A DNA stretch of 29,149 bases from a virus. The stretch lies in IMG/VR virus record IMGVR_UViG_3300025879_000072, positions 1 to 29,149 of that record. One strand, written 5' to 3'. The position numbers and the translations under genes are program-made. This document shows, one piece after another, positions 1 through 29,149 of this stretch (positions are counted from its first letter, which is position 1; every line of letters begins with the position of its first letter). The notes beneath the pieces are model-generated. The model did not search any database, had not been told where the DNA came from, and saw only the letters and a list, made by a program, of their open reading frames with translations.

Positions 1-708
1 TTTGAAGAAGAACAAGAGATTTTAGAATCAATGAGCGGCAACCACCACTCTGGCAACATACTAGAATCTATAAAAATAAATATAAAATGTAAAACTAGTA
101 ACCAAAAGAACTTAGTAAAAACCATAAAAGATAAAGAGATGGTTATATGTTCAGGTTTACCAGGAACAGGAAAAACCTTTCTATCTTGCGCTGTAGCTTT
201 AGATTTGTTAAAGAAAGAACCTAAATACCGAAAGATTGTTATTGTAAAATCAGTTACAACCCTTAAAGATGAAGAGATAGGTTTTTTAAAAGGTAGTATG
301 AAGGAAAAAATGGAACCATTTATGTACTCTTTTATGCATAACTTTGAAAAAATAGCGGGTAGATACAATACGCAATGCCTTAGAGAGGCGGGTATGATAG
401 AAGAAATGCCTATAGCTTATATGAGGGGTATTAACATAGATAATTCTATAGTCATAATAGATGAAGCTCAAAACATATCCATAGACAATATAAGAACGAT
501 TATGACCAGACTAGGTGAGAACTCTAAAATGATATTTCTTGGTGATGAAAATCAAGTAGATATGAAGAGGAGAAGTCAAAGTTCTCTGGAATTCATAATA
601 GATAAATTTAGTAATTTTGATGAGGTGGGGACTATTAGGTTAGATGAGACGGATGTCGTTAGAAACCCCCTAATTAAAAAAATAGAACAAATTTTCAGAG
701 AAAATTAA
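1..708 (+). CDS. phoH: PhoH-like P-loop ATPase (5' end cut by window edge)
   Basis: This is a phage PhoH family protein, a P-loop ATPase of the phosphate-starvation type that is common in T4-like marine phages; its phage role is not settled. Counting from the ATG at 31, a Walker A motif GLPGTGKT lies at residues 42-49 and a Walker B motif IVIIDEAQN with D144 and E145. The C-terminal part has the expected LGDENQVD sequence. The reading frame is open through positions 1-30 and encodes a Glu-rich stretch, so the true start may lie left of the window and the ATG at 31 may be internal. The gene ends at a TAA followed by a 50-base gap that holds a long inverted repeat. Confidence 0.92.
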   Translation, partial: FEEEQEILESMSGNHHSGNILESIKINIKCKTSNQKNLVKTIKDKEMVICSGLPGTGKTFLSCAVALDLLKKEPKYRKIVIVKSVTTLKDEEIGFLKGSMKEKMEPFMYSFMHNFEKIAGRYNTQCLREAGMIEEMPIAYMRGINIDNSIVIIDEAQNISIDNIRTIMTRLGENSKMIFLGDENQVDMKRRSQSSLEFIIDKFSNFDEVGTIRLDETDVVRNPLIKKIEQIFREN

Positions 709-722
709 ATGTAACCTTTATT

Positions 723-774
723 TTATACCAATTACCATTACTTTTAATAAAAAACTATATGGTAATTGGTATAA
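723..774 (+). promoter_or_regulatory. 16-bp perfect inverted repeat that covers the start codon at 759
   Basis: The left arm 723-738 (TTATACCAATTACCAT) is the exact reverse complement of the right arm 759-774, with a 20-base AT-rich loop. The right arm begins with the ATG of the next gene and encodes its first residues, MVIGI. As RNA it would fold into a hairpin that hides the start codon. No T-run follows, so it does not look like a rho-independent terminator. It could be a translational switch, or a protein-binding dyad in DNA. Confidence 0.6.
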
Positions 775-1397
775 CTATAAATAATATTCTACGTGACCAC
801 GTATCCAAATTAAAGGATTTATATGAGTTCGAATTCGAGAAAGAAATCGAAGGTCCTATTAATCCGTTTGAATTACAAAAACACTTTCCAGATGTTATTA
901 ATGAAAACGATTCCCCAGAATTTAAGGATGATGGTAAAGATGTAGAATTTCAAGAAAACGCAAAAGACGACTCATTTAATTTAGATAAATTTATGTATGA
1001 GGACGCCTCCTTTGAAATATTCGGTAGAACAGATGAACCAGAATATGGTATCATAAAGAGTATCTCCGATTTCTCAAACAAAAATAGAATAAAGATAGTT
1101 CTACTGAACAATGAAAGTCAGAGATCAAAAGCTGCAACTTTATTCTTCTTAAGTAAGAATTATTATAACTTAGAAAAAATAGTCTTCCCTAAAAAATGGA
1201 AAGACTTCTGGTCACACTGTGATGTTATGGTTACAGACAACCCAAAGTTACTTAAATCAAAACCAAAAGATAAAATATCTATTAAGTATAAAAACGATTT
1301 TAATGTTGACATTAAGTCTGATTATAGTATAATTAACACAAAGGAATTATTTAAACTCCTAAGAAAATTAAAAAAAGAAAGTAATGGAAAAAAATAA
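759..1397 (+). CDS. HAD-like protein, probably catalytically inactive
   Basis: The 212-residue product has the outline of a HAD-fold 5'-nucleotidase-like protein, but this is an inference from pattern. The N-terminal strand reads MVIGITINNILRD where a HAD motif I would read (h)GxDxDGxL(R)D; the two aspartates are replaced by Thr and Asn. A motif II-like strand IKIVLLNNES (about residues 107-116) supplies the Ser, and a KKWKDFWSHCDVMVTDNP stretch resembles motifs III and IV. Residues about 50-75 are acidic and probably disordered. The last 14 bases overlap the next gene, which points to translational coupling. Its start codon lies in a long inverted repeat. It could be a pseudoenzyme, or a different Rossmann-like fold. 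Confidence 0.45.
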   Translation: MVIGITINNILRDHVSKLKDLYEFEFEKEIEGPINPFELQKHFPDVINENDSPEFKDDGKDVEFQENAKDDSFNLDKFMYEDASFEIFGRTDEPEYGIIKSISDFSNKNRIKIVLLNNESQRSKAATLFFLSKNYYNLEKIVFPKKWKDFWSHCDVMVTDNPKLLKSKPKDKISIKYKNDFNVDIKSDYSIINTKELFKLLRKLKKESNGKK

Positions 1398-2463
1398 CGA
1401 AATAGTTAAAAATCTAGATTCTGCTATCGCAAAGATTCAGAACAAAGAACATAAAATAATTTTTATGGTACCCGATACTAAGGGTAATGGTAAGTCTAGT
1501 GTAATACACTTATATGACCAAGCATTATCACTTAAAAAACAAGGGTATAATGTGGCTATGTTACATGAGAAAAATGACTTCATTAAAGTTGGTAGTTGGT
1601 TATCAGAAGAATGTGATGAAATCGAACACATGTCCATAGAAGATAACGATCTAGTAGTAGGTCCTTCAGATTTTATGGTTGTACCAGAAGTTTACGGTAG
1701 TGTATTCGAGCAAATCGCTAAAATGCCTATGGAGAAGGTTATATACATACAGTCTTACGATTATATGTTAGAAGCGTTTTCCCCTGGTAAATCTTGGTTA
1801 GATACAGGGGTTGAAGAATGTATCACAACTTCGAACACCCTTAAATCAATGGTTGAAAGTACTGTACCAGTAAAAGATGTACAATTCATAGAACCAAAAA
1901 TAGGTGGTAATTTCACCCCAAGTGAGAAACCACAAAAACCAATCATAGCAATACACTGTAGAGAAGCTAGAAAAGCAGCTAAAGTGATAAAATCTTTTTA
2001 CATGAAATACCCTATCTATAGGTTCGTTTCTTTTAAAGATATGCACACTATGAATCACGGTGATTTCTCTTCAAACTTAAAGGAATGTGCTGTATCATTA
2101 TGGATTGACGACGATTCTTCTTTCGGTAGATTCCCAGTTGAGTCTATAAAGTGTAACGTACCAGTTATAGGTAAAGTACCTAACATTATCCCAGAATGGA
2201 TGACCGATGACAACGGTGTATGGGTTTATGATGAAAATCAGATACCAGAAATATTATCTAGCTTCATTAAAAACTGGTTAGATGATACGTTACCAGAAAA
2301 CTTAACTAACGTACTAGACAGTGTGAATGATAAGTACACTGAAGATAATTTTGATAAAAACACATTAGAAGTTTTCGAACACCTATTCAATAAAAAGGTT
2401 AGTAAACTAGAAAAAATAAAAGAAAATTTTAAAGAAACATTACAAGAAGATGAGCAAAAGTAA
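1384..2463 (+). CDS. GT-B-type glycosyltransferase
   Basis: The 359-residue protein looks like a GT-B fold glycosyltransferase. The N-terminal half starts with a Rossmann-like strand IIFMVPDTKGNGKSSVIHLY (about residue 24) followed by a helix, in the style of GT4 enzymes. The C-terminal half holds FGRFPVESIKCNVPVIG, with E253 in the place of the nucleotide-sugar-binding glutamate that GT4 enzymes carry before a 'xNVPVI' turn. No signal peptide or membrane segment is visible. It overlaps the gene before by 14 bases and the gene after by 14 bases, so the cluster is probably translated in a coupled way. Donor and acceptor cannot be read from the sequence. The GKSS stretch is not a convincing Walker A motif. 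Confidence 0.65.
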   Translation: MEKNNEIVKNLDSAIAKIQNKEHKIIFMVPDTKGNGKSSVIHLYDQALSLKKQGYNVAMLHEKNDFIKVGSWLSEECDEIEHMSIEDNDLVVGPSDFMVVPEVYGSVFEQIAKMPMEKVIYIQSYDYMLEAFSPGKSWLDTGVEECITTSNTLKSMVESTVPVKDVQFIEPKIGGNFTPSEKPQKPIIAIHCREARKAAKVIKSFYMKYPIYRFVSFKDMHTMNHGDFSSNLKECAVSLWIDDDSSFGRFPVESIKCNVPVIGKVPNIIPEWMTDDNGVWVYDENQIPEILSSFIKNWLDDTLPENLTNVLDSVNDKYTEDNFDKNTLEVFEHLFNKKVSKLEKIKENFKETLQEDEQK

Positions 2464-3283
2464 TTTAACAGTTATAGTACCAGTACACTCAGTAGGGGAT
2501 TCAGGTAAACATAAATTCGATGATATGTTCGATATAGCATTATCATCAATCAGTATAAACGAAGTTAAACCAGAAAAGGTATTGATAGTAACATGCGACT
2601 GCAAAGATGTTAATGACAAAATGGCTTCAACGGATTTCAGTAAGTATGAAGGTTTAGACATCGAAGTTATCGTAAATGATGGAGAAAGTGACTATCAGAG
2701 CCAGGTAAACTTCGCTGCTAAAAAAGTGGGTACAGAATACATGAGTGTTTTAGAGTTCGATGACGAGTTATCTAAAACCTGGTTTAAAAACGTGAACAAA
2801 CACATGGATGCGTATCCTGAAGTAGAATTATTCCTACCAATAGTAAATGATGTTGATCAAGAAGGTAACTTCGTAGGTCTATCAAATGAAGCTGTATGGG
2901 CTTACAACTTCACGGAGGAAGTAGGTACAGTAGATCTAGAGACCTTATTAGAGTACCCTAACATTAGTCTTTGTGGTATGGTGATAAAAACGGATGTTTA
3001 TAACAATATAGGTGGTTTAAAGCAGATTAAATTAACATTCAATTACGAATTTTTACTAAGGTTCCATAAAAATGGACACAAATCTATGGTAATCCCTAAA
3101 ATAGCTTACAAACACATAAACATGAGGGATGAATCATTATTCTGGTTGTATAAAAATAGCGAAGCTTTAGAGTACAAGATAGAACCAGACGAGGCTATTT
3201 TCTGGATGGAAACGGCTAAAAAAGAATATTTATTTAATAACGATAGGGAAATAACTTATGAGGCTGTAGAAACAATTGATTAA
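2450..3283 (+). CDS. GT2-like (GT-A fold) glycosyltransferase
   Basis: The 277-residue protein has the order of a family 2 glycosyltransferase: an N-terminal strand NLTVIVPVH, a helix, a second strand VLIVTCDC, and a DXD-like site LEFDDE at D104-D105. The later GMVIKTDVYNNIGGLKQ matches the 'h(r)r..y..vGgFde' turn that usually precedes the acceptor-side helix, and NYEFLLRFHKNG follows. There is no membrane anchor. It overlaps the gene before by 14 bases and shares one base with the start of the gene after (TAATG). It pairs with the GT-B enzyme next to it; the two probably act on the same glycan. Confidence 0.72.
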   Translation: MSKSNLTVIVPVHSVGDSGKHKFDDMFDIALSSISINEVKPEKVLIVTCDCKDVNDKMASTDFSKYEGLDIEVIVNDGESDYQSQVNFAAKKVGTEYMSVLEFDDELSKTWFKNVNKHMDAYPEVELFLPIVNDVDQEGNFVGLSNEAVWAYNFTEEVGTVDLETLLEYPNISLCGMVIKTDVYNNIGGLKQIKLTFNYEFLLRFHKNGHKSMVIPKIAYKHINMRDESLFWLYKNSEALEYKIEPDEAIFWMETAKKEYLFNNDREITYEAVETID

Positions 3284-8182: not shown

Positions 8183-9715
8183 ATGGGTATATACAGAACA
8201 TATTTTGATAAAAACAACACGATTGTTAAAAATAGTGAGATAAACACTGGTAGGAACCAAGTGTCTGAACTATATTTTGGGGGTGAAACTAGTAGATTCC
8301 TATTCTACTGTTCCTTTGATGAAATAAAATCAATGGTTGAATCAAAAACCATAAACACGGATTCTGATGTGACTCACACCTTAAAAATAAAAAACACCTC
8401 AAGTTTCGATATAAAAGATTTTTTGAGTATAAATAATAATTTAATGTTAGGGGAAAGCTACAGACCAAATTCTGTAGACATAGAATTACATGTAGTTCCA
8501 GAATATTGGGACGAAGGTACTGGTTATGATTTTATCCCATCATCTAATTCACAACCACAAGATAGAGATTACATATCCGAAGCATCTAATTGGTTTAATT
8601 CAACTAGAGTAAAAACCTTTAATAATGAAGGTGCAATACCTCTTAATAGCAAACCTATAGCTAGTATACACCTAGATAAGGGTAATGAAGATATAGTTAT
8701 GGATATAACTAAATTTGTTAATGACTATATAAAAAATGATTATAATGGCGGAATAACCACGGGAATAACTACAGGAATAACCACGGGAATAACTACAGGG
8801 ATAACCACGGGAATAACTACTGGAATAACTACTGGGATAACTACAGGAATAACTACTGGGATAACTACAGGAATAACTACTGGTGTGACTACTGGTACTA
8901 CCAGATATATGGGTTTTTGTTTAAAATATAGTGATACCATAGAAGACCTACCCATTGAAGTGGACGATAAAACTTATGCTATAGGCTTGTTCACCAGACA
9001 CACCCAAACCTTCTTCGAACCGTTCATAGAAACTAAGTACGACGACTACATAGAAGACGATAGAAATAATTTTTATTTAGGTAAGAACAATAAGTTATTC
9101 TTTAATTCTATTATAGGGGGTAAATTTGTTAATCTAGATAAGATACCAAAATGTACAGTTAACGGTACGGAACTAGAAGTTAAACAAAAAACCAAAGGGG
9201 TTTACTATACTGAGTTATACGGTAATGAAAATTTATTGACTAGTTATACTGAATACAATGACATATGGAGTGATATATCGTACAAAGGTATGGCCAGGCC
9301 AGATGTCAAACTAAGGTTTGTACCCATAGATTCAGATAAATACTACAACTTTAATCTTGATGGATTAGACGATTCAAGGTACGGAATTTCTTTGAGTGGT
9401 ATAAAAAGGGAAGAAAAATTAAGTCAAGGAGAATTAAGAAAAGTAAACGTTTTATTAAGAAAACCTTACACAGTTTCAGAATACGAACCGAGTAACAGTA
9501 TTTATTATAGAATGTATACCAGACAAGGTCCAACAATTATACCTATTATAGAATGGGAAAAGGTTAACAGAAGCCTTAATAATAATTATTTTAATATAGA
9601 CACCACCTGGCTAGTACCTCAAGACTACTTTATTGATATAAAGGTAGAGACTGGCGGTGAAGTTAATATATATGAAAATGAATTGGAGTTCCAATTAGTA
9701 AATAAACTTACTTAG
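8183..9715 (+). CDS. tail/baseplate protein with DNRLRE-like domain and GITT repeats
   Basis: This 510-residue protein starts with what looks like a DNRLRE-type beta-sandwich (a stalk domain known from secreted proteins): NTGRNQVSELYFGG, SRFLFYCSFDEI, SVDIELHVV, EYWDEGTGYDF (W109 to G114), a second Trp-containing loop, then DITKFVNDYI and RYMGFCLKYSD. Between the last two elements, residues 190-240 are a run of eleven GITT units, one GVTT and GTT. In family members this site is usually a short turn, so the repeat looks like an insertion in a loop. The C-terminal 220 residues are beta-rich and unrecognised. The gene lies between the gp5-like gene and small baseplate-block genes, so a virion role is likely. 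The domain call is from pattern only. Confidence 0.55.
   Translation: MGIYRTYFDKNNTIVKNSEINTGRNQVSELYFGGETSRFLFYCSFDEIKSMVESKTINTDSDVTHTLKIKNTSSFDIKDFLSINNNLMLGESYRPNSVDIELHVVPEYWDEGTGYDFIPSSNSQPQDRDYISEASNWFNSTRVKTFNNEGAIPLNSKPIASIHLDKGNEDIVMDITKFVNDYIKNDYNGGITTGITTGITTGITTGITTGITTGITTGITTGITTGITTGITTGVTTGTTRYMGFCLKYSDTIEDLPIEVDDKTYAIGLFTRHTQTFFEPFIETKYDDYIEDDRNNFYLGKNNKLFFNSIIGGKFVNLDKIPKCTVNGTELEVKQKTKGVYYTELYGNENLLTSYTEYNDIWSDISYKGMARPDVKLRFVPIDSDKYYNFNLDGLDDSRYGISLSGIKREEKLSQGELRKVNVLLRKPYTVSEYEPSNSIYYRMYTRQGPTIIPIIEWEKVNRSLNNNYFNIDTTWLVPQDYFIDIKVETGGEVNIYENELEFQLVNKLT
8750..8902 (+). repeat. 12-bp tandem repeat coding GITT
   Basis: Twelve 12-base units run from 8750 to 8893, based on GGAATAACTACT, and a partial unit (GGTACTACC) follows to 8902. 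The first eleven encode GITT and the twelfth GVTT. Units alternate between two spellings (ACCACG with ACTACA, later ACTACT with ACTACA), so the true period of recent copying is partly 24 bases. Because the unit is a multiple of three, gain or loss of copies keeps the reading frame. Confidence 0.95.
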
Positions 9716-20115: not shown

Positions 20116-21693
20116 ATGGGAGCATTATTAGAATCAGGAAAAGTTGGTAACGTAAACCTTAATCACTTGAAAGAGGTACGTACTGACGTAATTAACAGAT
20201 GGGACGGACTAGGACTTTTAGAAGGTCTTGGAGGTCACAGAAAAGAGAATATCGCACAATTATTTGAAAACCAAGCATCTTACATGCTTAATGAATCAGT
20301 TGCACTAGGTAACGAAGGTTCTTTCGAAACAGTGGTATTCCCAATCGTGAGAAGAGTATTCTCAAAATTATTAGCTAACGAAATCGTATCGGTACAAGCA
20401 TTGAACTTACCAATTGGTAAATTGTTCTACTTCATTCCTAAGTTGGAAAACTCTGCTTACGCAGGTGGAGCAGCAGGAATCGATCCAAACGGTACATCAG
20501 TTAGTCCAAACTTGTATGACGCATTCTACGGAGAAAACGGTCTTTATGACAATTCTAAAGGTGCTGAAACAGTATTAACAGGTGCAGTTACTGCAACTAC
20601 ATTCGTATTTGACTCTGCTGACGAAAGCGGTTTCGCAGCAACAACAGGTACTTCTATTGACGCTGGTGAAACTGGTGTACTTAAAGTTAAGTTCACTTCA
20701 AATATCGCTAACTGGGAAAATGCTGACGAAGTATTATCTACTTTGAGTGTTGTAGCAGCTGGTGCTGATTTAGATTTCTATTTACCAGCACAAAAATATG
20801 GTAACTCTGCAATGGATTCTGAAGGTAACGTTTATGTTGCTGTAGTGAATAACGGTTCAGCTTCAGTTGCTGTAGGTGATATCGTTGCTACTGCTAAAGA
20901 ATACGATTCTTTAGAATACCAAGATGAAATGGGTGAAGTTTCTTTCGAACTTAAATCTGTAACAGTTTCTGTTATCGAAAGAAAACTAAGAGCACAATGG
21001 TCTCCAGAGCTTGCTCAGGATGTTAGTGCTTTCCACAACATTGATGCTGAAGCTGAATTAACAGCTTTATTATCAGAACAAGTTGCTGCTGAAATCGATC
21101 GTGAAATCTTAAGAGATTTACGTAGAGGTGCTGCTTGGAGAATGACGTGGGATTACTCTGGATCTAGAGTTAACACTGGTGGAATTGCTGCCGTAGGATC
21201 TGACAGAGGTTTCTATACTCAAAAAGAGTGGAACCAAACGTTAATCACAGCGGTTAACCAAGTTTCTGCACAAATTCATAAAGCTACATTAAGAGGTGGT
21301 GCTAACTGGATCGTTGTATCTGCTGAAGTTTCAGCGATATTAGATGATTTAGAATACTTCCACGTATCTAATGCAGCTCCAGAGCAAGATAAATTCAACA
21401 TGGGTATTGAAAGAATCGGTTCATTGGGTGGAAGATACCAAGTATACCGTGATCCTTACTTCCCAGCTGACACAATCTTAATGGGACATAAAGGTACTTC
21501 ATTATTGGATACTGGTTACATCTACGCACCATACGTGCCGATGCAATTAACGCCGACAATGTACAACCCGTTCACTTTCGCGCCAGTTAAAGGTATTATG
21601 ACTAGATATGCTAAGAAAATGGTTAATAACCGTTTCTATGGTACTATCAAGTGTAAAAATATCGTTAGCTTCGGTATCGGAGGTTTCAGATAA
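20116..21693 (+). CDS. 23: major capsid protein (gp23-like)
   Basis: The 525-residue protein has the T4 gp23 landmarks: FENQASYMLNES near the N-terminus, PIVRRVFSKLLANEIVSVQ, VSVIERKLRAQWSPELAQDV, AEAELTALLSEQVAAEIDRE, and GRYQVYRDPYFPADTILMGHKG with YIYAPYVP near the end. LNE60-S61 lines up with the site at which T4 gp21 removes the first 65 residues of gp23. Residues about 150-270 form an Ala/Gly/Thr-rich beta insertion that could be exposed. Codons look tuned for high expression (more C-ending and GCT/GGT codons than the neighbours). An A-rich leader with no Shine-Dalgarno precedes it, and a strong terminator follows. Confidence 0.94.
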   Translation: MGALLESGKVGNVNLNHLKEVRTDVINRWDGLGLLEGLGGHRKENIAQLFENQASYMLNESVALGNEGSFETVVFPIVRRVFSKLLANEIVSVQALNLPIGKLFYFIPKLENSAYAGGAAGIDPNGTSVSPNLYDAFYGENGLYDNSKGAETVLTGAVTATTFVFDSADESGFAATTGTSIDAGETGVLKVKFTSNIANWENADEVLSTLSVVAAGADLDFYLPAQKYGNSAMDSEGNVYVAVVNNGSASVAVGDIVATAKEYDSLEYQDEMGEVSFELKSVTVSVIERKLRAQWSPELAQDVSAFHNIDAEAELTALLSEQVAAEIDREILRDLRRGAAWRMTWDYSGSRVNTGGIAAVGSDRGFYTQKEWNQTLITAVNQVSAQIHKATLRGGANWIVVSAEVSAILDDLEYFHVSNAAPEQDKFNMGIERIGSLGGRYQVYRDPYFPADTILMGHKGTSLLDTGYIYAPYVPMQLTPTMYNPFTFAPVKGIMTRYAKKMVNNRFYGTIKCKNIVSFGIGGFR

Positions 21694-21810: not shown

Positions 21811-24543
21811 ATGAAAAAATTACTATACATAGCCCCACACTTATCTACAGGGGGTTTACCACAATATTTAACCAAAAAAATAGAGTTACTAAGAGATTCA
21901 TTTGAGATATATGTTGTAGAATGGTCTGACCACACTGGAGGTGTTTTAGTTGTACAAAGAGACAGAATAACCTCAATGGTTGATTCCGATAAATTCTTCA
22001 CATTAAATGAAAATAAGGGTGAATTAATTGATATAATCAATAAAGTGCAACCAGATATAGTTCATATGGAAGAAATTCCAGAATATTTTATGGATTTCGA
22101 TGTGGCTAAAGAATTATATTCAACAGAAAGAACTTATAGTATAGTAGAAACTTCTCACGACTCTTCATATGACGCTACACAAAAAAAGTTTTTCCCAGAT
22201 AAATTTATGTTCGTATCGGATTGGCAAATAAAATTATTTGACCCAATAAAAGATATACCTAAAGTATTAGTAGAATATCCAATAGAATACGAAGAAAGAC
22301 CAGAAAGATCCAAAGCTTTATCAGAATTAGGTTTAGATCCAACAAAAAAACACATTCTACACGTAGGTTTATTTACACCCAGAAAAAATCAAGCTGAATT
22401 CTTCGAGTATGCTAGAAGTTTACCAGAATATGTTTTCCATACAGTAGGTAACCAAGCTGGCAACTTTGCATATTACTGGGAACCATTAATGGATAATAAA
22501 CCAGATAACGTTATATGGCACGGAGAAAGAAGTGATGTAGATAGATTCTATGGTGCTATGGACTTATTCCTATTCACCTCTAGAGGATCCAATAATGATA
22601 AAGAAACCATGCCACTAGTTATAAGAGAAGCTATATCATGGAATTTACCAATATTAATATATAATTTAGGTGTTTATTTAGATTATTTCGATAAATTCGA
22701 TAATGTCGATTATTTAGATTTTGATGACTTCAATAGTAACTGTGTTAAAATACAGGATACTTTAAATAATGATTTAGTTAATAACGATTTTAAGGGTGGT
22801 ATAAAGCCAGATAATGAAGCTATAATAATATCTACCTACCCGACAACTAAAAGCGCCTTAGATACGACCATAGAGTGTATAATGGGAGCTAAAAGGACTG
22901 GAAGGAAGGTGATACTAACCTCACACTTGCCAATATCAACAGAATTACAATCTTTAGTGGATTATAGTATCTACGATAAGAACAATATACTAACCAAACA
23001 CACGTTCTATTCCCAAAGCAGGTTCACCAATGAAAGTATGAGCTCATTTGTTAATTTAAGGGGTGAGGATAACGATATATATCATGGACCTACGTGTTAC
23101 ACGAACTACTATAACGGAGCTTCGTTAGCTAAAGACTTAGGTATAGACAAAGTATATTTTATTAACTATGATTACGTGATTAAGAATACTGAATATATTG
23201 ATAGTATATCTAAAGTTTTAAACACTAAAAAAGCTTACTTAGGTGATATGCCTAACAATCCAGAAGGGCATTCAGTAACCACGTTTTTCATGGGTATTAA
23301 ACCAGAATTCTACTTAGATTCATTTGAACCTATATTCAGTGCAAAGGATTATGAGGATTTAAGGTTAAAATGGGGTTCTTATAGTAATGGTTATGAAAAT
23401 ATGTCTTTCTTCGCACTAAAAGATAAGTTAGATGAAATCGAATTGGTTGATGAAGACACGTTCAATAAAGAAATTAGTTTAAATTTAGAACATAGAGACT
23501 TTTCGATGGTAGAATATTTTACGGTATTACCAACTAATATACCTAACACTATGTCGGTATATCTTCAGGTTTCTAACTCCATAGATAGTAGAATTATAAA
23601 TATTAGGATAATTAAAGAATCTAAAGGTGTTGAGACGCTAATATCTAATGAGGATGTTACTGTTAACGGTAAAACAGCGTGGTATAACAAAATTAAATAC
23701 GTTATAGGTAACGAAGATATATATCGCGTAAAATACACGGCACTAGATAAAGATACCAATAAAGAGATAGTTAGAAAAGAAATTATCATTGATGACCAAT
23801 ACATCTTAAAAACACTACCTGATAATGGTATGTTAACTTATAAGATGCTTGAAGATCCAAAAATAAGGATAGTACACTTAGTCACAGAACCAGATACTAA
23901 TGAGAAAGAAATAATCTCAACCGATTCATTAAAGGATTTTGCTAACAACTTCTCTAATATAGAGTATCACCAGAAAATTAATGAGATATATAAAGAACTA
24001 CCCCCTTCGGACACTTGCAATAGACCTAAAGATATTGAAGAAGAACCTGGGTATTTCAAATTATCACCTGGTCACTACGGTTGTTTCTTAGCACACAAGA
24101 ATGGTATAACCCTAGAAACTAATAATGATTTTGATATTATATTGATATTCGAAGGTGATGTTATCATAGACTCCCCATACCAAGAACTATACGAAAACCT
24201 AATCAGATGGTCTAGACTATCTAAAGAAGAAGATATAGATATGGTTGGGTTCGGTAATTATTGTGCTGAAAGGTACTCTGGTGAAAAAGAAGATTTGTTA
24301 TTAAATTTAAGTATATTCGCACCAGCACAATCCTACTTAATAAATAAAGAAAAGCTACCTGTATTCAGATCAAAATTTGAAGAATGTAAATGGGATGCTT
24401 TTGATTTATGGATGACTAAAGTTGCTGACCTACACGGAGCTATGGCTAAAAAAGTGTATACAAAACACCTCCCTGGTTATTCGATTGTGGACAAAAAAGA
24501 TAAGAATAAAGATAATGATTACTCAGAAATATTTGCTGGGTAA
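21811..24543 (+). CDS. multidomain glycosyltransferase (GT-B, GT-A-like, GT25-like)
   Basis: This 910-residue protein appears to join several sugar-transfer domains. Residues 1-330 are a GT-B enzyme of GT4 style: MKKLLYIAPHLSTGGLPQYL, then HILHVGLFTPRKNQAEFFEY from 181 and TMPLVIREAISWNLPILIYN. Residues about 337-560 look like a GT-A-like domain (AIIISTYPTTKSALDTTIEC, then DKVYFINYDYV). Residues about 568-675 are a beta-rich linker domain. From 684 the C-terminal domain resembles family GT25 LPS enzymes: SPGHYGCFLAHKNGI from 752, then IILIFEGDVII, where E781-G782-D783 replaces the usual EDD. It starts the glycan island after a host-type promoter. No membrane anchor is visible. Sugars cannot be predicted. 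Confidence 0.7.
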   Translation: MKKLLYIAPHLSTGGLPQYLTKKIELLRDSFEIYVVEWSDHTGGVLVVQRDRITSMVDSDKFFTLNENKGELIDIINKVQPDIVHMEEIPEYFMDFDVAKELYSTERTYSIVETSHDSSYDATQKKFFPDKFMFVSDWQIKLFDPIKDIPKVLVEYPIEYEERPERSKALSELGLDPTKKHILHVGLFTPRKNQAEFFEYARSLPEYVFHTVGNQAGNFAYYWEPLMDNKPDNVIWHGERSDVDRFYGAMDLFLFTSRGSNNDKETMPLVIREAISWNLPILIYNLGVYLDYFDKFDNVDYLDFDDFNSNCVKIQDTLNNDLVNNDFKGGIKPDNEAIIISTYPTTKSALDTTIECIMGAKRTGRKVILTSHLPISTELQSLVDYSIYDKNNILTKHTFYSQSRFTNESMSSFVNLRGEDNDIYHGPTCYTNYYNGASLAKDLGIDKVYFINYDYVIKNTEYIDSISKVLNTKKAYLGDMPNNPEGHSVTTFFMGIKPEFYLDSFEPIFSAKDYEDLRLKWGSYSNGYENMSFFALKDKLDEIELVDEDTFNKEISLNLEHRDFSMVEYFTVLPTNIPNTMSVYLQVSNSIDSRIINIRIIKESKGVETLISNEDVTVNGKTAWYNKIKYVIGNEDIYRVKYTALDKDTNKEIVRKEIIIDDQYILKTLPDNGMLTYKMLEDPKIRIVHLVTEPDTNEKEIISTDSLKDFANNFSNIEYHQKINEIYKELPPSDTCNRPKDIEEEPGYFKLSPGHYGCFLAHKNGITLETNNDFDIILIFEGDVIIDSPYQELYENLIRWSRLSKEEDIDMVGFGNYCAERYSGEKEDLLLNLSIFAPAQSYLINKEKLPVFRSKFEECKWDAFDLWMTKVADLHGAMAKKVYTKHLPGYSIVDKKDKNKDNDYSEIFAG

Positions 24544-24567: not shown

Positions 24568-25512
24568 ATGAGAATATGTCAAGTACACCCAGGCTGCGGT
24601 ATACCAGTACCACCACCAAGTTGGGGAGCGGTAGAAAAGATAGTCTGGGAGTTTACACAAAACCTAAGAAGTTTAGGTCACACAGTAGACATTAAATACG
24701 CAAACGAGATAAACCAAGGTGATTATGACATAGTACACGTACATATGGCTAATTTAGCTATATTCCTAAAAGAAAGAGGTGTTAAGTACGTATACCAACT
24801 ACACGACCATCACGCTTACTATTATGGTAAGGACTCTAGAGTATTTAAACAAAACCTAGAAGCTATAGAAGGTTCAGAGATATCCCTAATGCCAGGTAGG
24901 TTCTTAGTACCATACTTCAATACACCTAAAGCTACTTATTTTTCTCACGGGGTTAATACAGATTTTTTTAAACCTAGTGAAAAACCTAAAGAACATAAAT
25001 TATTATGTTTAGCCAACAACGGTATGGCTGGTATGGATGGGTACGATAGAAAAGGTTTTGGTTTCGCTATAAAAGCAGCCATGGCCAAAAACTTACCTAT
25101 AACAATAGCTGGACCAAGAAACAACGAGAATTTTATAAAAGAAAACCCATGGATTTACGGTTACCCTAAATTAAATTTAGAATGGGAACCAAACCAGGAA
25201 GAGTTAGTTGATCTATATCATAGACACTCAATTTTTATGCACCCATCTGAATTAGAAGCTGGGCATCCAAATTTAACGTTATTAGAGGCTTCAGCTTGTG
25301 GTTTACCCATAAACGGGTGGATAGAACTAGAAACTGACTTTAACGGTATGTGGAGAGCCAGACGCAACGTATTAGAGTTAGTTAGAGGTCTTGATGACAT
25401 CATCGACAATTATGACTTATATCGAAATAAAGCGATAGAACACGCAAAATCATTGTCCTGGTACAACAGATCCGTAGAATTATTAGAGGTTTATAAAAAA
25501 TATAGTAATTAA
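24568..25512 (+). CDS. GT4 family glycosyltransferase
   Basis: The 314-residue protein is a GT-B glycosyltransferase of family 4. It opens MRICQVHPGCGIPVPPPSWG with a GAVEKIVWEF helix, as in many GT4 enzymes; VYQLHDHHAYYY and FSHGVNTDFFKP are typical of the inter-domain region; and HPSELEAGHPNLTLLEASAC (H225 to C244) is the donor-binding motif, with a slightly altered E-x-E spacing. It lies 24 bases after the multidomain enzyme and its stop overlaps the next start (TAATG). A TATAAATA (24561-24568) overlaps the first base of the start codon. Confidence 0.82.
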   Translation: MRICQVHPGCGIPVPPPSWGAVEKIVWEFTQNLRSLGHTVDIKYANEINQGDYDIVHVHMANLAIFLKERGVKYVYQLHDHHAYYYGKDSRVFKQNLEAIEGSEISLMPGRFLVPYFNTPKATYFSHGVNTDFFKPSEKPKEHKLLCLANNGMAGMDGYDRKGFGFAIKAAMAKNLPITIAGPRNNENFIKENPWIYGYPKLNLEWEPNQEELVDLYHRHSIFMHPSELEAGHPNLTLLEASACGLPINGWIELETDFNGMWRARRNVLELVRGLDDIIDNYDLYRNKAIEHAKSLSWYNRSVELLEVYKKYSN

Positions 25513-27149
25513 TGAAGATTTTAGGTATTTCTTTCGGTGAACATTGTTGCGGTATAACTCTAATGGATAAGGGGAGAATAGTATTTTCTTTAGAAGAGGA
25601 AAGACATGTTAGGGTTAAAACTTATGATGATTTTTATAGTGGTTATTTTAGGTACCCATTAGAATCAATTAATTCGGCTGTAGAAAAGTTTGGTCTAGAT
25701 ATAAGTTCTTTGGATTACATAACTAGTTACTACCCCAAAGAAGAGGTCAAATATTTTTGGGAGGAAATGGGTTTAGGTGATTTTCCTGAAGATAAGTTTG
25801 TCTTTATCGATCATCATGATTCTCATGCGGCCACAGCATATTATTTAAGTAATTTCAATGAAGAAACCCTAGTAGTTACTATTGACGCTAGTGGTGGCGA
25901 TTATAGTGCTAAATATTTTACCGCAAAAGACGGTGATTTAAAATATATCGACGGGTTAACCTTAGATAAAAAGTCTTTTGGTCATCTATACTCTCTAATA
26001 ACAGAATTTTTAGGTTTTAAAAGATTGAAAGATGAAGGTAAGGTTGTGGGTATGGCTGCACACGGTAAATACGACTCATTAATACATAAAGCTTTAAATG
26101 ATTCATTCAAAGTCTATGGTATTAAAACCGATGATGATAACAAACTAGATAGTGGAGATGTTGTATTAGGTAAACTATACTTAGACTTCTACCACAGCCT
26201 CTATAAAGAACTGGGATCAAAAGTATTAACCTCTAAAAAAGAAGATATAGCTTATACTGGTCAAGAATTCTTTGAATCAAAAGTATTAGAATTATTCAAC
26301 AACCTACACAATATGTTTCCTCATATAAAAAAGGTAGCTTTAGCTGGAGGTATATTTGCTAACGTTAAATTAAACAAGAGGTTGAATGAATTAGACTGGG
26401 TTGACGAAATATTCGTAGCACCCCCAATGGGTGATGAAGGTTGTGCTCTAGGATGTTCATTATTAACACATAAGAATAAAAACCCAGAATTTAAACCATT
26501 TAAGTTAGATAATGTGTATTTAGGTACGTCATATACCGATGCTGAAGTGGGTGAACATTACTGGGATATGAGTTTATTTAGTAGAGAATTATTTACACCA
26601 GAACTTGCCGCTAAATATTTATCTGAAGGTAATATAATAGGTGTATTTAATGGTAGGTATGAACACGGACCAAGAGCACTCGGTAATAGAAGTATTATAG
26701 GTGAGGTAACCAACCCAGAAACTTATGATAAAATAAACGATAAGTTACAAAGAAACGATTTTATGCCGTTCGCACCAGCTGTAATGAGTGAGTACGCAGA
26801 GGATATATTTTATATCAACAAATCTAAGTATACCGCAGAATTCATGACTATGCTGTATGATACTAAACCAGAGTGGTCTGAAAAAATACCCACAGTAGTA
26901 CATCCAGTTGACAAAACAGCTAGAATACAAGTAGTTACAAAAGATAGTAACTCAAAATTCCATAGTATATTAGAAGAATATAACAAAATAACGGGTGTAC
27001 CAATTCTACTAAACACTTCTTTTAACGTACATAGAGAACCAATAGTATGTCACCCAAACGAGGCTTTTAACCACCTATCCAACGATGTGGTGGATTTATT
27101 AATAATGAATAATTTTATTTACAAGAAACATGAAGGAAATATTAATTAA
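25512..27149 (+). CDS. carbamoyltransferase (NodU/CmcH family)
   Basis: The 545-residue protein transfers a carbamoyl group, normally from carbamoyl phosphate through an adenylate, to a sugar or related hydroxyl. The N-terminal Kae1-like domain has MKILGISFGEHCCGITLMD, SLEEERHVR, FIDHHDSHAA (H101, H102, H105) and TIDASGGDYS. VVGMAAHGKYD and VALAGGIFANVKLNKRL follow. The C-terminal YrdC-like domain begins around YEHGPRALGNRSI (E384 to I395) and ends ILLNTSFNVHREPIV. All family landmarks are present, so it should be active. It shares one base with the GT4 stop and overlaps the next gene by 20 bases, so the product probably adds carbamoyl groups to the glycan built by its neighbours. Confidence 0.92.
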   Translation: MKILGISFGEHCCGITLMDKGRIVFSLEEERHVRVKTYDDFYSGYFRYPLESINSAVEKFGLDISSLDYITSYYPKEEVKYFWEEMGLGDFPEDKFVFIDHHDSHAATAYYLSNFNEETLVVTIDASGGDYSAKYFTAKDGDLKYIDGLTLDKKSFGHLYSLITEFLGFKRLKDEGKVVGMAAHGKYDSLIHKALNDSFKVYGIKTDDDNKLDSGDVVLGKLYLDFYHSLYKELGSKVLTSKKEDIAYTGQEFFESKVLELFNNLHNMFPHIKKVALAGGIFANVKLNKRLNELDWVDEIFVAPPMGDEGCALGCSLLTHKNKNPEFKPFKLDNVYLGTSYTDAEVGEHYWDMSLFSRELFTPELAAKYLSEGNIIGVFNGRYEHGPRALGNRSIIGEVTNPETYDKINDKLQRNDFMPFAPAVMSEYAEDIFYINKSKYTAEFMTMLYDTKPEWSEKIPTVVHPVDKTARIQVVTKDSNSKFHSILEEYNKITGVPILLNTSFNVHREPIVCHPNEAFNHLSNDVVDLLIMNNFIYKKHEGNIN

Positions 27150-28365
27150 AGAATACAACAACACTAACATTCTAAGAAAAAAATACAAAGAACCAAAAAA
27201 CAGTTTCTTTATAAATTTCACTAACGGACCAATATGTGAAATAAAGGGGCCTATAGATAATAGGTATAAGGTTATGTTCACTAACAGGGAGAACGGTAAA
27301 TTGATACACTCTTCAGAGATAACCAACAATATGTGGACTAAGTGTACCAGAGAATATTTCATAGATTGGAATATAAAGGTCTACGACTTAAGTAACAACG
27401 AATTAGTGTTTGAACACAACTACAATGCTAAAAATAAAAAGGTTTATATACATCTAGGTAGTTCAGCTATAGGTGACACAATAGCCTGGCTACCATACGT
27501 TGAAGAGTTTAGAAAAAAACATGGTTGTAAAATGATATGTTCAACGTTTCATAACGATTGGTTTGAATCAACATACCCAGAAATAAAATTTGTTAAACCT
27601 GGTACACAGATTGATAATCTATATGCGATGTACGGTGTTGGTTGGTTTTACAATAACAAGGAAGTTAATTACAACAAGATACCCGTAGAATTTAAAAACC
27701 TACCCCTACAACAAACTTCCAGTTCTATATTAGGTTTAGATTACAAAGAGATAAAACCAAAATTATCGTTTACTGAAGAACCTAGTAGATTTGAAAATAA
27801 ATACGTAGTAATAGCTCCACACGCTTCGGCTCACGCAAAGTACTGGAATAATCCTGGTGGATGGCAAAAGGTCGTTGATTATTTAAAATCCAAAGGCTAT
27901 GAAGTAGTTATGATTACTTCAGAAAAACTTAATGATACTTGGCATGATTCTAAGTTGGGTGGAACCCTAAAAGGTGTTATTGATAAAACTGGTGATCATA
28001 TAGACCTTAAGGATAGAATGATAGATATAAAAAACGCTGATGCCTTTATAGGGTTAGGTAGTGGTTTAAGTTGGTTATCATGGGCCATAGGTACACCGAC
28101 AGTATTAATATCAGGGTTCAGTCTACCTTTATCAGAGTTCAATGATTGTGAAAGAGTATTCACACCAAATAAAGATACTTGTAGTGGTTGTTTTAATAGA
28201 GAATGGTTAAATGCTGGTGATTGGGAATGGTGTCCAGATCATAAAGATACAGAAAGACATTTCGAGTGTACAAAAACCATAACAGTTAAACAAGTTATAA
28301 ATGCCACCGAAAAAGCCTTAAACATTAAATCTTGCATTATAAATAAAATAGGTAAATTATTCTAA
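27130..28365 (+). CDS. GT9 heptosyltransferase like autotransporter O-heptosyltransferase (TibC/Aah type)
   Basis: The 411-residue protein combines an N-terminal beta domain (FFINFTNGPICEIKGPIDNR, YKVMFTNRENGKLI) with a GT9 heptosyltransferase core: IHLGSSAIGDTIAWLPYVEE from 107, VVIAPHASAHAKYWNNP around A229, and a GLGSGLSWLSWAIGTPTVLI donor-site segment. Four cysteines near the end, C351-x2-C354-x13-C368-x11-C380, match the four-cysteine iron-binding finger known from TibC. TibC and Aah attach heptose to Ser/Thr of autotransporter repeats in bacteria. Substrate here is unknown; repeat-rich virion proteins are the obvious candidates. It overlaps the carbamoyltransferase by 20 bases and ends before a symmetric terminator. 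Confidence 0.8.
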   Translation: MKEILIKEYNNTNILRKKYKEPKNSFFINFTNGPICEIKGPIDNRYKVMFTNRENGKLIHSSEITNNMWTKCTREYFIDWNIKVYDLSNNELVFEHNYNAKNKKVYIHLGSSAIGDTIAWLPYVEEFRKKHGCKMICSTFHNDWFESTYPEIKFVKPGTQIDNLYAMYGVGWFYNNKEVNYNKIPVEFKNLPLQQTSSSILGLDYKEIKPKLSFTEEPSRFENKYVVIAPHASAHAKYWNNPGGWQKVVDYLKSKGYEVVMITSEKLNDTWHDSKLGGTLKGVIDKTGDHIDLKDRMIDIKNADAFIGLGSGLSWLSWAIGTPTVLISGFSLPLSEFNDCERVFTPNKDTCSGCFNREWLNAGDWEWCPDHKDTERHFECTKTITVKQVINATEKALNIKSCIINKIGKLF

Positions 28366-28380
28366 ATTACTAATTAACAA

Positions 28381-28415
28381 AAAAAAAGGTCTTGTTAATC
28401 ACAAGACCTTTTTTT
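28381..28415. terminator. bidirectional rho-independent terminator
   Basis: A7-GGTCTTG (28381-28394) pairs with CAAGACC-T7 (28402-28415) across a 7-base loop. With A on the left and T on the right it can stop the plus-strand glycan island and the minus-strand fibre gene, which converge here. Confidence 0.88.
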
Positions 28416-28426
28416 ATTCTTTAAAA

Positions 28427-29149
28427 TTACCCCCTAGCAGGGTCTATCGATGTGAGTATACCATCCTTATAACTAAAAATCATTGGCTCTCTATCTGTCT
28501 GCACAACTACATTACCAGTAAATCCTTCAGTCGAACCACCTCCTTCACCAGCAGGTCCTTGAGGTCCTTGAATACCTTGAATACCTTGAATACCTTGAGG
28601 CCCTCTAGCCCCAGTCGCTCCAGTTGCACCAGTATCACCTTTAGGTCCTTGTGGACCAGTTGCACCAGTATTACCATTAGCACCATTTCTTCCTGAAGTA
28701 CCATTTGCCCCTTTAGCTCCAGTTGCTCCAGTTGCACCAGTATTACCTATAGGTCCTTGAGACCCAGTTGCACCAGTATCTCCTTTAGGACCTTGAGGTC
28801 CAGTTGCACCATTGTTTCCATTTCTTCCAGAAGTTCCATTTGCACCAGTATCTCCTTTAGGACCTTGTGCACCAGCTGCACCAGTATTACCATTGTTCCC
28901 ATTTCTTCCTGAAGTACCACTACTTCCGTTAGCACCATTGTTCCCATTGTTTCCGTTCCTTCCAGAGGTACCGCTATTACCTTTATCACCTTTAGGTCCT
29001 TGAATACCCTGGTTACCTATAGGCCCTTGATTACCATTAACACCTGAAGTACCATTGTTACCACTATTTCCATTGTTTCCGTTCCTTCCAGAGGTACCGC
29101 TATTACCTTTATCACCTTTAGGTCCTTGAATACCCTGGTTACCTATAGG
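28427..29149 (-). CDS. collagen-like fibre protein, C-terminal part (gene continues past window)
   Basis: On the minus strand an open frame runs from the right edge to a TAA at 28427-28429, 240 codons, with no stop. It encodes 67 uninterrupted Gly-X-Y triplets (for example GPKGDTGATGATGARGPQ) followed by a 37-residue non-collagen tail that ends FSYKDGILTSIDPARG. Such proteins form trimeric fibres in phage tails; the tail could seed trimer folding or be an attachment tip. The sequence GTSGRNG recurs five times. No start codon is in the window, so length and N-terminal domain are unknown. It is transcribed against all other genes here and converges on a shared terminator. A plus-strand Pro-rich frame in this region is only its shadow. 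Confidence 0.85.
   Translation of the reverse strand, partial: PIGNQGIQGPKGDKGNSGTSGRNGNNGNSGNNGTSGVNGNQGPIGNQGIQGPKGDKGNSGTSGRNGNNGNNGANGSSGTSGRNGNNGNTGAAGAQGPKGDTGANGTSGRNGNNGATGPQGPKGDTGATGSQGPIGNTGATGATGAKGANGTSGRNGANGNTGATGPQGPKGDTGATGATGARGPQGIQGIQGIQGPQGPAGEGGGSTEGFTGNVVVQTDREPMIFSYKDGILTSIDPARG
28944..29149 (-). repeat. 80-bp perfect direct repeat in the collagen-like gene
   Basis: Positions 28944-29023 and 29070-29149 are identical over 80 bases, 126 bases apart (42 codons, 14 Gly-X-Y triplets). The second copy reaches the window edge and may continue. The identity at third positions points to recent duplication or gene conversion. Confidence 0.92.

Follow-up and report, generated by a model that had tools for sequence, protein, structure and literature searches.

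A TibC/Aah-family enzyme of T4-like phages is paired with collagen-like fibre genes and probably glycosylates the fibres

The DNA analyzed here is a 29,149-nucleotide stretch of a viral contig (IMG/VR record IMGVR_UViG_3300025879_000072, positions 1 to 29,149), which is referred to as the window. It encodes a glycosyltransferase of the TibC/Aah family, and a gene for a collagen-like Gly-X-Y protein faces the enzyme gene from downstream. Since the enzyme gene lies beside a gene for a Ser/Thr-rich collagen-like fibre across many related phages, these fibres are probably sugar-coated by their own phage; we propose that the phage-owned enzyme, acting with a GT4 glycosyltransferase, probably O-glycosylates the collagen-like fibre of the same phage.

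The open reading frame of the enzyme begins with ATG and ends at a single stop codon, and the start methionine was invariant across a 16-sequence alignment. The original prediction, made from the letters of the window, had described this gene as a TibC/Aah-like heptosyltransferase with an N-terminal beta domain and the cysteine pattern C351-x2-C354-x13-C368-x11-C380, and the reading frame and all four cysteine positions were verified. The protein matched TIGR04414 (NCBIfam), the profile of the autotransporter heptosyltransferases to which it had been likened, with an E-value of 1.4e-95 and 320.4 bits, above the curated cut-off of 200, and its only sequence matches in the PDB were to TibC (E about 1e-58). 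The AlphaFold2 model had a mean predicted local distance difference test score of 78, with the iron-finger stretch modelled poorly. The N-terminal beta domain and the GT-B core were present in the predicted fold as in TibC, and the Pfam TibC_1st profile for the beta domain gave a sub-threshold match (15.9 bits; cut-off 27). A Foldseek search with the model returned TibC chains at ranks 1-21 (E 1e-26 to 1e-32), GT9 proteins other than TibC had E-values of 1e-7 or above, and the TM-score against TibC 4RAP chain D was 0.76 (query) and 0.82 (target). Models of the generic lipopolysaccharide (LPS) heptosyltransferases (RfaC/RfaF/RfaQ types) gave 14-47 bits against cut-offs of 170-467, and the fold also disagreed with such an assignment. 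By sequence, predicted fold and active site, the enzyme is thus placed in the TibC/Aah family and not among the generic LPS heptosyltransferases.

In TibC, Asp110 is the catalytic base, Thr226, Lys230, Arg286 and Trp305 bind the sugar, and Cys339, Cys342, Cys358 and Cys370 are the iron ligands (PMC4358343). The corresponding residues of the phage enzyme were Asp116, Ser233 (by pairwise alignment), Lys237, Arg296 and Trp315. The equivalents of Asp110, Lys230 and Trp305 were found in all 59 aligned sequences and that of Arg286 in 41 of them. Cys351, Cys354, Cys368 and Cys380 aligned with the iron ligands of TibC, the second spacing being x13 here and x15 in TibC; the set was invariant in 55 distinct relatives in the first scan and present in 58/59 sequences of the later alignment, and is regarded as a putative iron finger. 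The thumb pair Phe265-Val266 of TibC is needed for its dodecamer, which a change to Asp breaks. This pair is not kept in the phage enzyme, which has Asp-Thr (Asp in 40/59 sequences, in a loop of uncertain alignment), and Pro300 of TibC, which sets heptose stereoselectivity, is replaced by Gly. The oligomeric state and the donor stereochemistry of the phage enzyme may differ from those of TibC.

The association between enzyme and collagen was examined in several sets of loci. In a first pass over loci selected by the enzyme, a Gly-X-Y gene was present in nearly all that had enough flanking sequence. After dereplication at 90% identity, with the window excluded and at least 5 kb of flank required towards the collagen gene (or, in the clade of the window, whose collagen gene faces the enzyme from downstream, enough downstream sequence), a collagen-like gene was found in 28 of the 28 non-redundant loci with enough flank, 25 of them Ser/Thr-rich. 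Among loci anchored on the gp23-type capsid gene and lacking the enzyme, collagen was found in 1 of 46. Similarly, among loci found by their tail-sheath gene, regardless of enzyme or collagen, collagen accompanied the enzyme in 13 of 17 distinct loci (nine Ser/Thr-type and four Pro-type), the other four having limited flank beyond the enzyme, whereas it was present in 2/29 loci without the enzyme. In whole capsid-anchored records, the exact Gly-Thr-Ser pattern occurred in 3/5 with the enzyme and 2/36 without it. Ser/Thr-rich repeats in general were rejected as the correlate, because non-collagen repeats showed no difference between enzyme-bearing and enzyme-free loci (p=0.11).

The association was specific to the type of collagen. 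Fifty contigs were picked by a Gly-Thr-Ser DNA pattern and fifty by a Pro-Gln collagen pattern, and TIGR04414 exceeded its cut-off in 17/50 of the former (18/50 at E<=0.001) versus 1/50 of the latter. When runs of at least 20 triplets and contigs of at least 20 kb were required, the enzyme was present in 18/39 Gly-Thr-Ser versus 1/33 Pro-Gln contigs (Fisher p=2.6e-5), and in contigs of at least 40 kb the counts were 15/25 and 1/17. The two genes were also close together: of the 18 enzyme-bearing Gly-Thr-Ser contigs, 14 had enzyme and collagen no more than 5 kb apart (5.0 expected, p=5e-6).

The original prediction had also named a Gly-X-Y repeat protein in this genome, and it is present as the gene at the end of the window, convergent with the enzyme gene. 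The 61 bases between the two hold a terminator-like inverted repeat. The 68 visible triplets are a mixture of two unit types, GNSGTSG and GPKGDKG. Members of the window's clade (L002-L012) have longer versions of the collagen, richer in Ser/Thr and in the same orientation. Across the loci, the Ser/Thr-type fibres contain almost no proline. In the record of Microcystis phage Mel-JY01 (L082, record 1-3052), a plus-strand collagen-like frame extends over 2-3052; the minus-strand hypothetical genes WWT39286.1 and WWT39287.1, annotated antisense to it, are likely misannotations.

A minority of enzyme loci carry Pro-type, Ser/Thr-poor collagens (L041, L048, L079, L450/L482, L490 and L549), and all of them have a 2-oxoglutarate (2OG)-Fe(II) oxygenase nearby. 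The oxygenase was found in 7/7 Pro-type rows (six distinct, since L450 and L482 are nearly the same phage) versus 2/40 Ser/Thr-rich loci (Fisher 6e-7). It matches Pfam PF13640, and its closest PDB sequences are PKHD-type hydroxylases; no 2OG oxygenase of the PF13640-type profile was found in the window. In the enzyme tree, the collagen type changed three times, and the oxygenase changed along with it in both well-supported pairs. This pattern fits an enzyme that needs hydroxyls on the collagen, from Ser/Thr or from hydroxylation. As proof of a hydroxylated acceptor the oxygenase was set aside, because strong matches were about equally frequent in both contig sets (4/50 each). Five further loci (L437, L442, L028, L498 and L222) are listed under the oxygenase observation.

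Relatives of the enzyme were found in at least 221 viral loci of IMG/VR, the best 80 of which were 58-77% identical to it. Among 50,697 phage records, the family occurred only in Mel-JY01 and in three huge-phage records without annotation (LR756501.1, LR756503.1 and LR756504.1; 636-735 kb), the latter with members at 35-41% identity. In Mel-JY01, the TibC-like domain is fused into a 1226-amino-acid protein annotated as methyltransferase FkbM. One further copy came from a Winogradskyella metagenome-assembled genome (MAG), on a contig that also bears a T4-like tail sheath; among 395 genomes of the phylum of this MAG, that MAG alone passed the cut-off, so an origin from bacterial chromosomes of the phylum is unsupported. 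The enzyme gene behaves as a phage gene and is common in uncultured T4-like phages. The contig of the window is itself T4-like by its gp23-type capsid, terminase, portal and protease genes, and the closest isolates by terminase or capsid (about 28-32% identity) are Flavobacterium phages of the immuto group, Mel-JY01 and Rhodothermus phage RM378.

The features of the window are listed in Table 1. The GT4 glycosyltransferase encoded upstream of the enzyme belongs to a family that overlaps, adjoins or is N-terminally fused to the enzyme in most relatives; in the remaining relatives, a different GT4 is fused to the enzyme, with or without an FkbM methyltransferase. The position of the carbamoyltransferase beside the enzyme is confined to the window's own clade. 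The GT25-like domain of the larger GT4-type protein reached a Pfam E-value of 2e-5 at best, lay below the cut-off in the window and matched GT25 structures at E=0.3 only, and its reading as a collagen galactosyltransferase is tentative. At L075:8746-10617, the TibC-like enzyme is extended at its C-terminal end by a GT25-like segment, which is related to the C-terminal part of this protein. A 1375-amino-acid GT4/TibC-like fusion frame at L435:1187-5314 has matches to intein splicing (below the Pfam cut-off) and LAGLIDADG domains between the two enzymes. Far from the cluster, positions 1384-3283 of the window hold two further putative glycosyltransferase genes, one with a sub-threshold GT2 match and the other without a Pfam match and GT-like by eye.

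Table 1. Features of the window discussed in the text (window coordinates)
Feature	Position	Strand	Basis or remark
(GITT)x11 minisatellite inside a 510-amino-acid protein; outside the system	8750..8891 (about)	+	orthologue comparison
gp23-type major capsid protein	20116..21693	+	context gene
GT4-type glycosyltransferase ending in a GT25-like domain (weak match, about residue 671 onward)	21811..24543	+	
GT4 glycosyltransferase	24568..25512	+	family adjacent to, or N-terminally fused with, the enzyme in most relatives
NodU/Nol-type carbamoyltransferase	25512..27149	+	20-base overlap with enzyme start
TibC/Aah-family (TIGR04414, GT9 fold) O-glycosyltransferase, 411 amino acids	27130..28365	+	family profile, PDB relatives, predicted fold
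Codon of Asp116, equivalent of TibC catalytic base Asp110	27475..27477	+	alignment; role per PMC4358343
Codon of Lys237, equivalent of TibC Lys230	27838..27840	+	alignment
Putative iron-finger stretch, Cys351-x2-Cys354-x13-Cys368-x11-Cys380	28180..28269	+	sequence, alignment
Inverted repeat, 15 bp, A/T runs, terminator-like	28381..28415	.	between convergent enzyme and collagen genes
Collagen-like Gly-X-Y protein, at least 68 triplets, proposed acceptor	28427..29149	-	gene cut by window end

A GITT repeat protein had been put forward in the original prediction as a second partner of the enzyme. The repeat exists, encoded by eleven near-identical 12-base units, but in most orthologues, from enzyme-bearing relatives and one enzyme-free relative, the flanks of the region align and the repeat is missing; G054 aligns through the region, and one other match is partial. 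The repeat is therefore best read as a local minisatellite, apparently a recent expansion, rather than a conserved partner, and it was ruled out as an acceptor. Of the co-occurrence of enzyme and repeat genes that had been proposed as a test, the part concerning the Gly-X-Y fibre genes stood, as these track the enzyme against several controls, and the part concerning the GITT repeat did not.

In the proposed mechanism, the enzyme would move a sugar from an adenosine diphosphate (ADP)-sugar donor, by family most likely ADP-heptose, onto hydroxyls of the Gly-X-Y region in the infected cell. The acceptors would be mostly Thr in the X and Ser in the Y position, or a hydroxylated residue. The adjacent or fused GT4 would extend the first sugar, and the GT4/GT25-like protein and, in the window's clade, the carbamoyltransferase would elaborate it further. 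The fibre might thereby be stabilized or shielded, or adsorption changed; sugars can stabilize collagen, according to the mention of Bann 2000 in PMC3368898. As for the donor, the rfaE domain II of ADP-heptose synthesis exceeded its cut-off in one of 41 enzyme-bearing records (G026, the record of L440), with weaker matches in six, so most carriers would use the ADP-heptose pool of the host; the single clear case of a phage encoding this ADP-heptose synthase domain is not decisive for a phage-made donor. A broader form of the proposal, in which the TibC-type enzyme and GT4 sugar collagen fibres in many T4-like phages of uncultured hosts and hydroxyls from Ser/Thr or, where the collagen is of the Ser/Thr-poor Pro-type, from residues hydroxylated by the phage's own 2OG oxygenase serve interchangeably, is possible but doubtful.

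Several observations weigh against glycosylation of the fibre. Seven changes of the enzyme were seen in the sheath tree, and in six independent pairs the collagen changed the same way in 3-4 and the opposite way in none (p about 0.13-0.25); these phylogeny-corrected contrasts point in the same direction as the other tests but are too few for significance. More than half of the contigs with Gly-Thr-Ser collagen lack the enzyme. The phage of G055 (the 190-kb record of L092), 66% related by capsid, has 50 Gly-Thr-Ser pattern matches and no TIGR04414 match, and may use another enzyme or none. The collagen stretch in the window is moderately Ser/Thr-rich (24% of X/Y positions) and incomplete at the contig end, and the acceptor of TibC is a beta-helix, a shape unlike collagen. 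The 2OG oxygenase also accompanies long Pro-type collagens on contigs without a glycosyltransferase, so helix stabilization alone could explain its presence. Finally, glycosylation of the fibre is a prediction from the genes.

The cluster of GT4, GT4/GT25-like, TibC-like and carbamoyltransferase genes might instead remodel the surface polysaccharide of the host to exclude other phages, and a shared hypervariable host-recognition region would then explain the fibre genes nearby. LPS and polysaccharide pathways include GT25 enzymes and carbamoyltransferases. In pelagiphage myoviruses, the host-recognition region is rich in glycosyltransferases that the authors read as O-chain modifiers (PMC7029224). 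However, tested members of the enzyme's family act on protein Ser (PMC4358343), and the association holds specifically for collagen of the Ser/Thr type (18/39 versus 1/33 for Pro-Gln) and tracks presence at one locus, which is unlike a generic fibre-region gene. We consider remodelling of the host surface unlikely.

It is rather unlikely, too, that the target of O-glycosylation by the enzyme is a different virion protein (the sheath, the capsid or a tail fibre rich in Ser), with collagen as a mere neighbour. A sheath gene is present in 68/80 enzyme loci, close by in most, and the capsid and tail tube of mycobacteriophages are glycosylated, as summarized in PMC12619734 from Freeman 2023; however, enzyme-free phages share the sheath and similar Ser-rich fibres and rarely have collagen. 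Family membership would also suit modification of a protein on the host surface, for instance an autotransporter, in the manner of the bacterial relatives. This is very improbable, given that the only family member in the carrier MAG's phylum (1/395) lies on a phage contig; furthermore, TIGR04415, the profile of the strand-loop-strand acceptor repeat, was not among the matches of the scanned neighbour proteins, the partner being collagen-like and not an autotransporter. Glycosylation of the phage's own collagen-like fibre is thus the reading that we favour.

In summary, this reading names a concrete acceptor for very common, unexplained phage glycosyltransferase genes that are usually taken as modifiers of host LPS. 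If it is true, a bacterial adhesin-sugaring enzyme was taken by phages and aimed at viral collagen, in parallel with collagen glycosylation in animals and mimivirus, and the discovery of sugars on these fibres would be relevant to their stability, to adsorption and to contact with bacterial surfaces. Glycosylation of viral collagen (mimivirus) and of phage virions (mycobacteriophages) is already known; in the open-access literature, no report was found of TibC-type enzymes in phages, of phage collagen glycosylation or of the pairing of enzyme and collagen.

The closest known system is TibC/Aah itself (BAHT, TIGR04414; PDB 4RAP, 4RB4), which the phage enzyme resembles in sequence, predicted fold, catalytic Asp/Lys/Arg/Trp and putative four-cysteine iron finger, and in a gene position adjoining a long repetitive Ser/Thr-rich protein. 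The phage enzyme differs in being carried by phages, in having a collagen-like fibre as its partner in place of an autotransporter, in the GT4 that adjoins it or is fused to it, and in the thumb pair and Pro300, which are not conserved. BclA of the Bacillus exosporium likewise has a collagen-like region that bears sugars in a prokaryotic protein, but it is a spore protein with different glycosylation machinery. In mycobacteriophages, phage-encoded glycosyltransferases also act on virion proteins; the acceptors described are the C-termini of capsid and tail-tube proteins, and the sections of that account drawn on here mention no collagen-like fibre. The pelagiphages are T4-like phages in which glycosyltransferase genes adjoin tail-fibre genes, but in the portion of PMC7029224 considered these are read as modifiers of the host O-chain, and no TibC-type enzyme or collagen pairing is described there. 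In mimivirus, viral collagen is glycosylated by L230, an unrelated bifunctional lysyl hydroxylase and glucosyltransferase (PMC4691112). As proposed for the phages, a virus there sugars its own collagen, and the Pro-type loci of the phages also encode a hydroxylase; unlike the phage system, the mimivirus one combines an unrelated glycosyltransferase with the hydroxylase in a single protein, belongs to a eukaryotic virus and uses hydroxylysine as the acceptor, whereas the phage hydroxylase is a separate gene.
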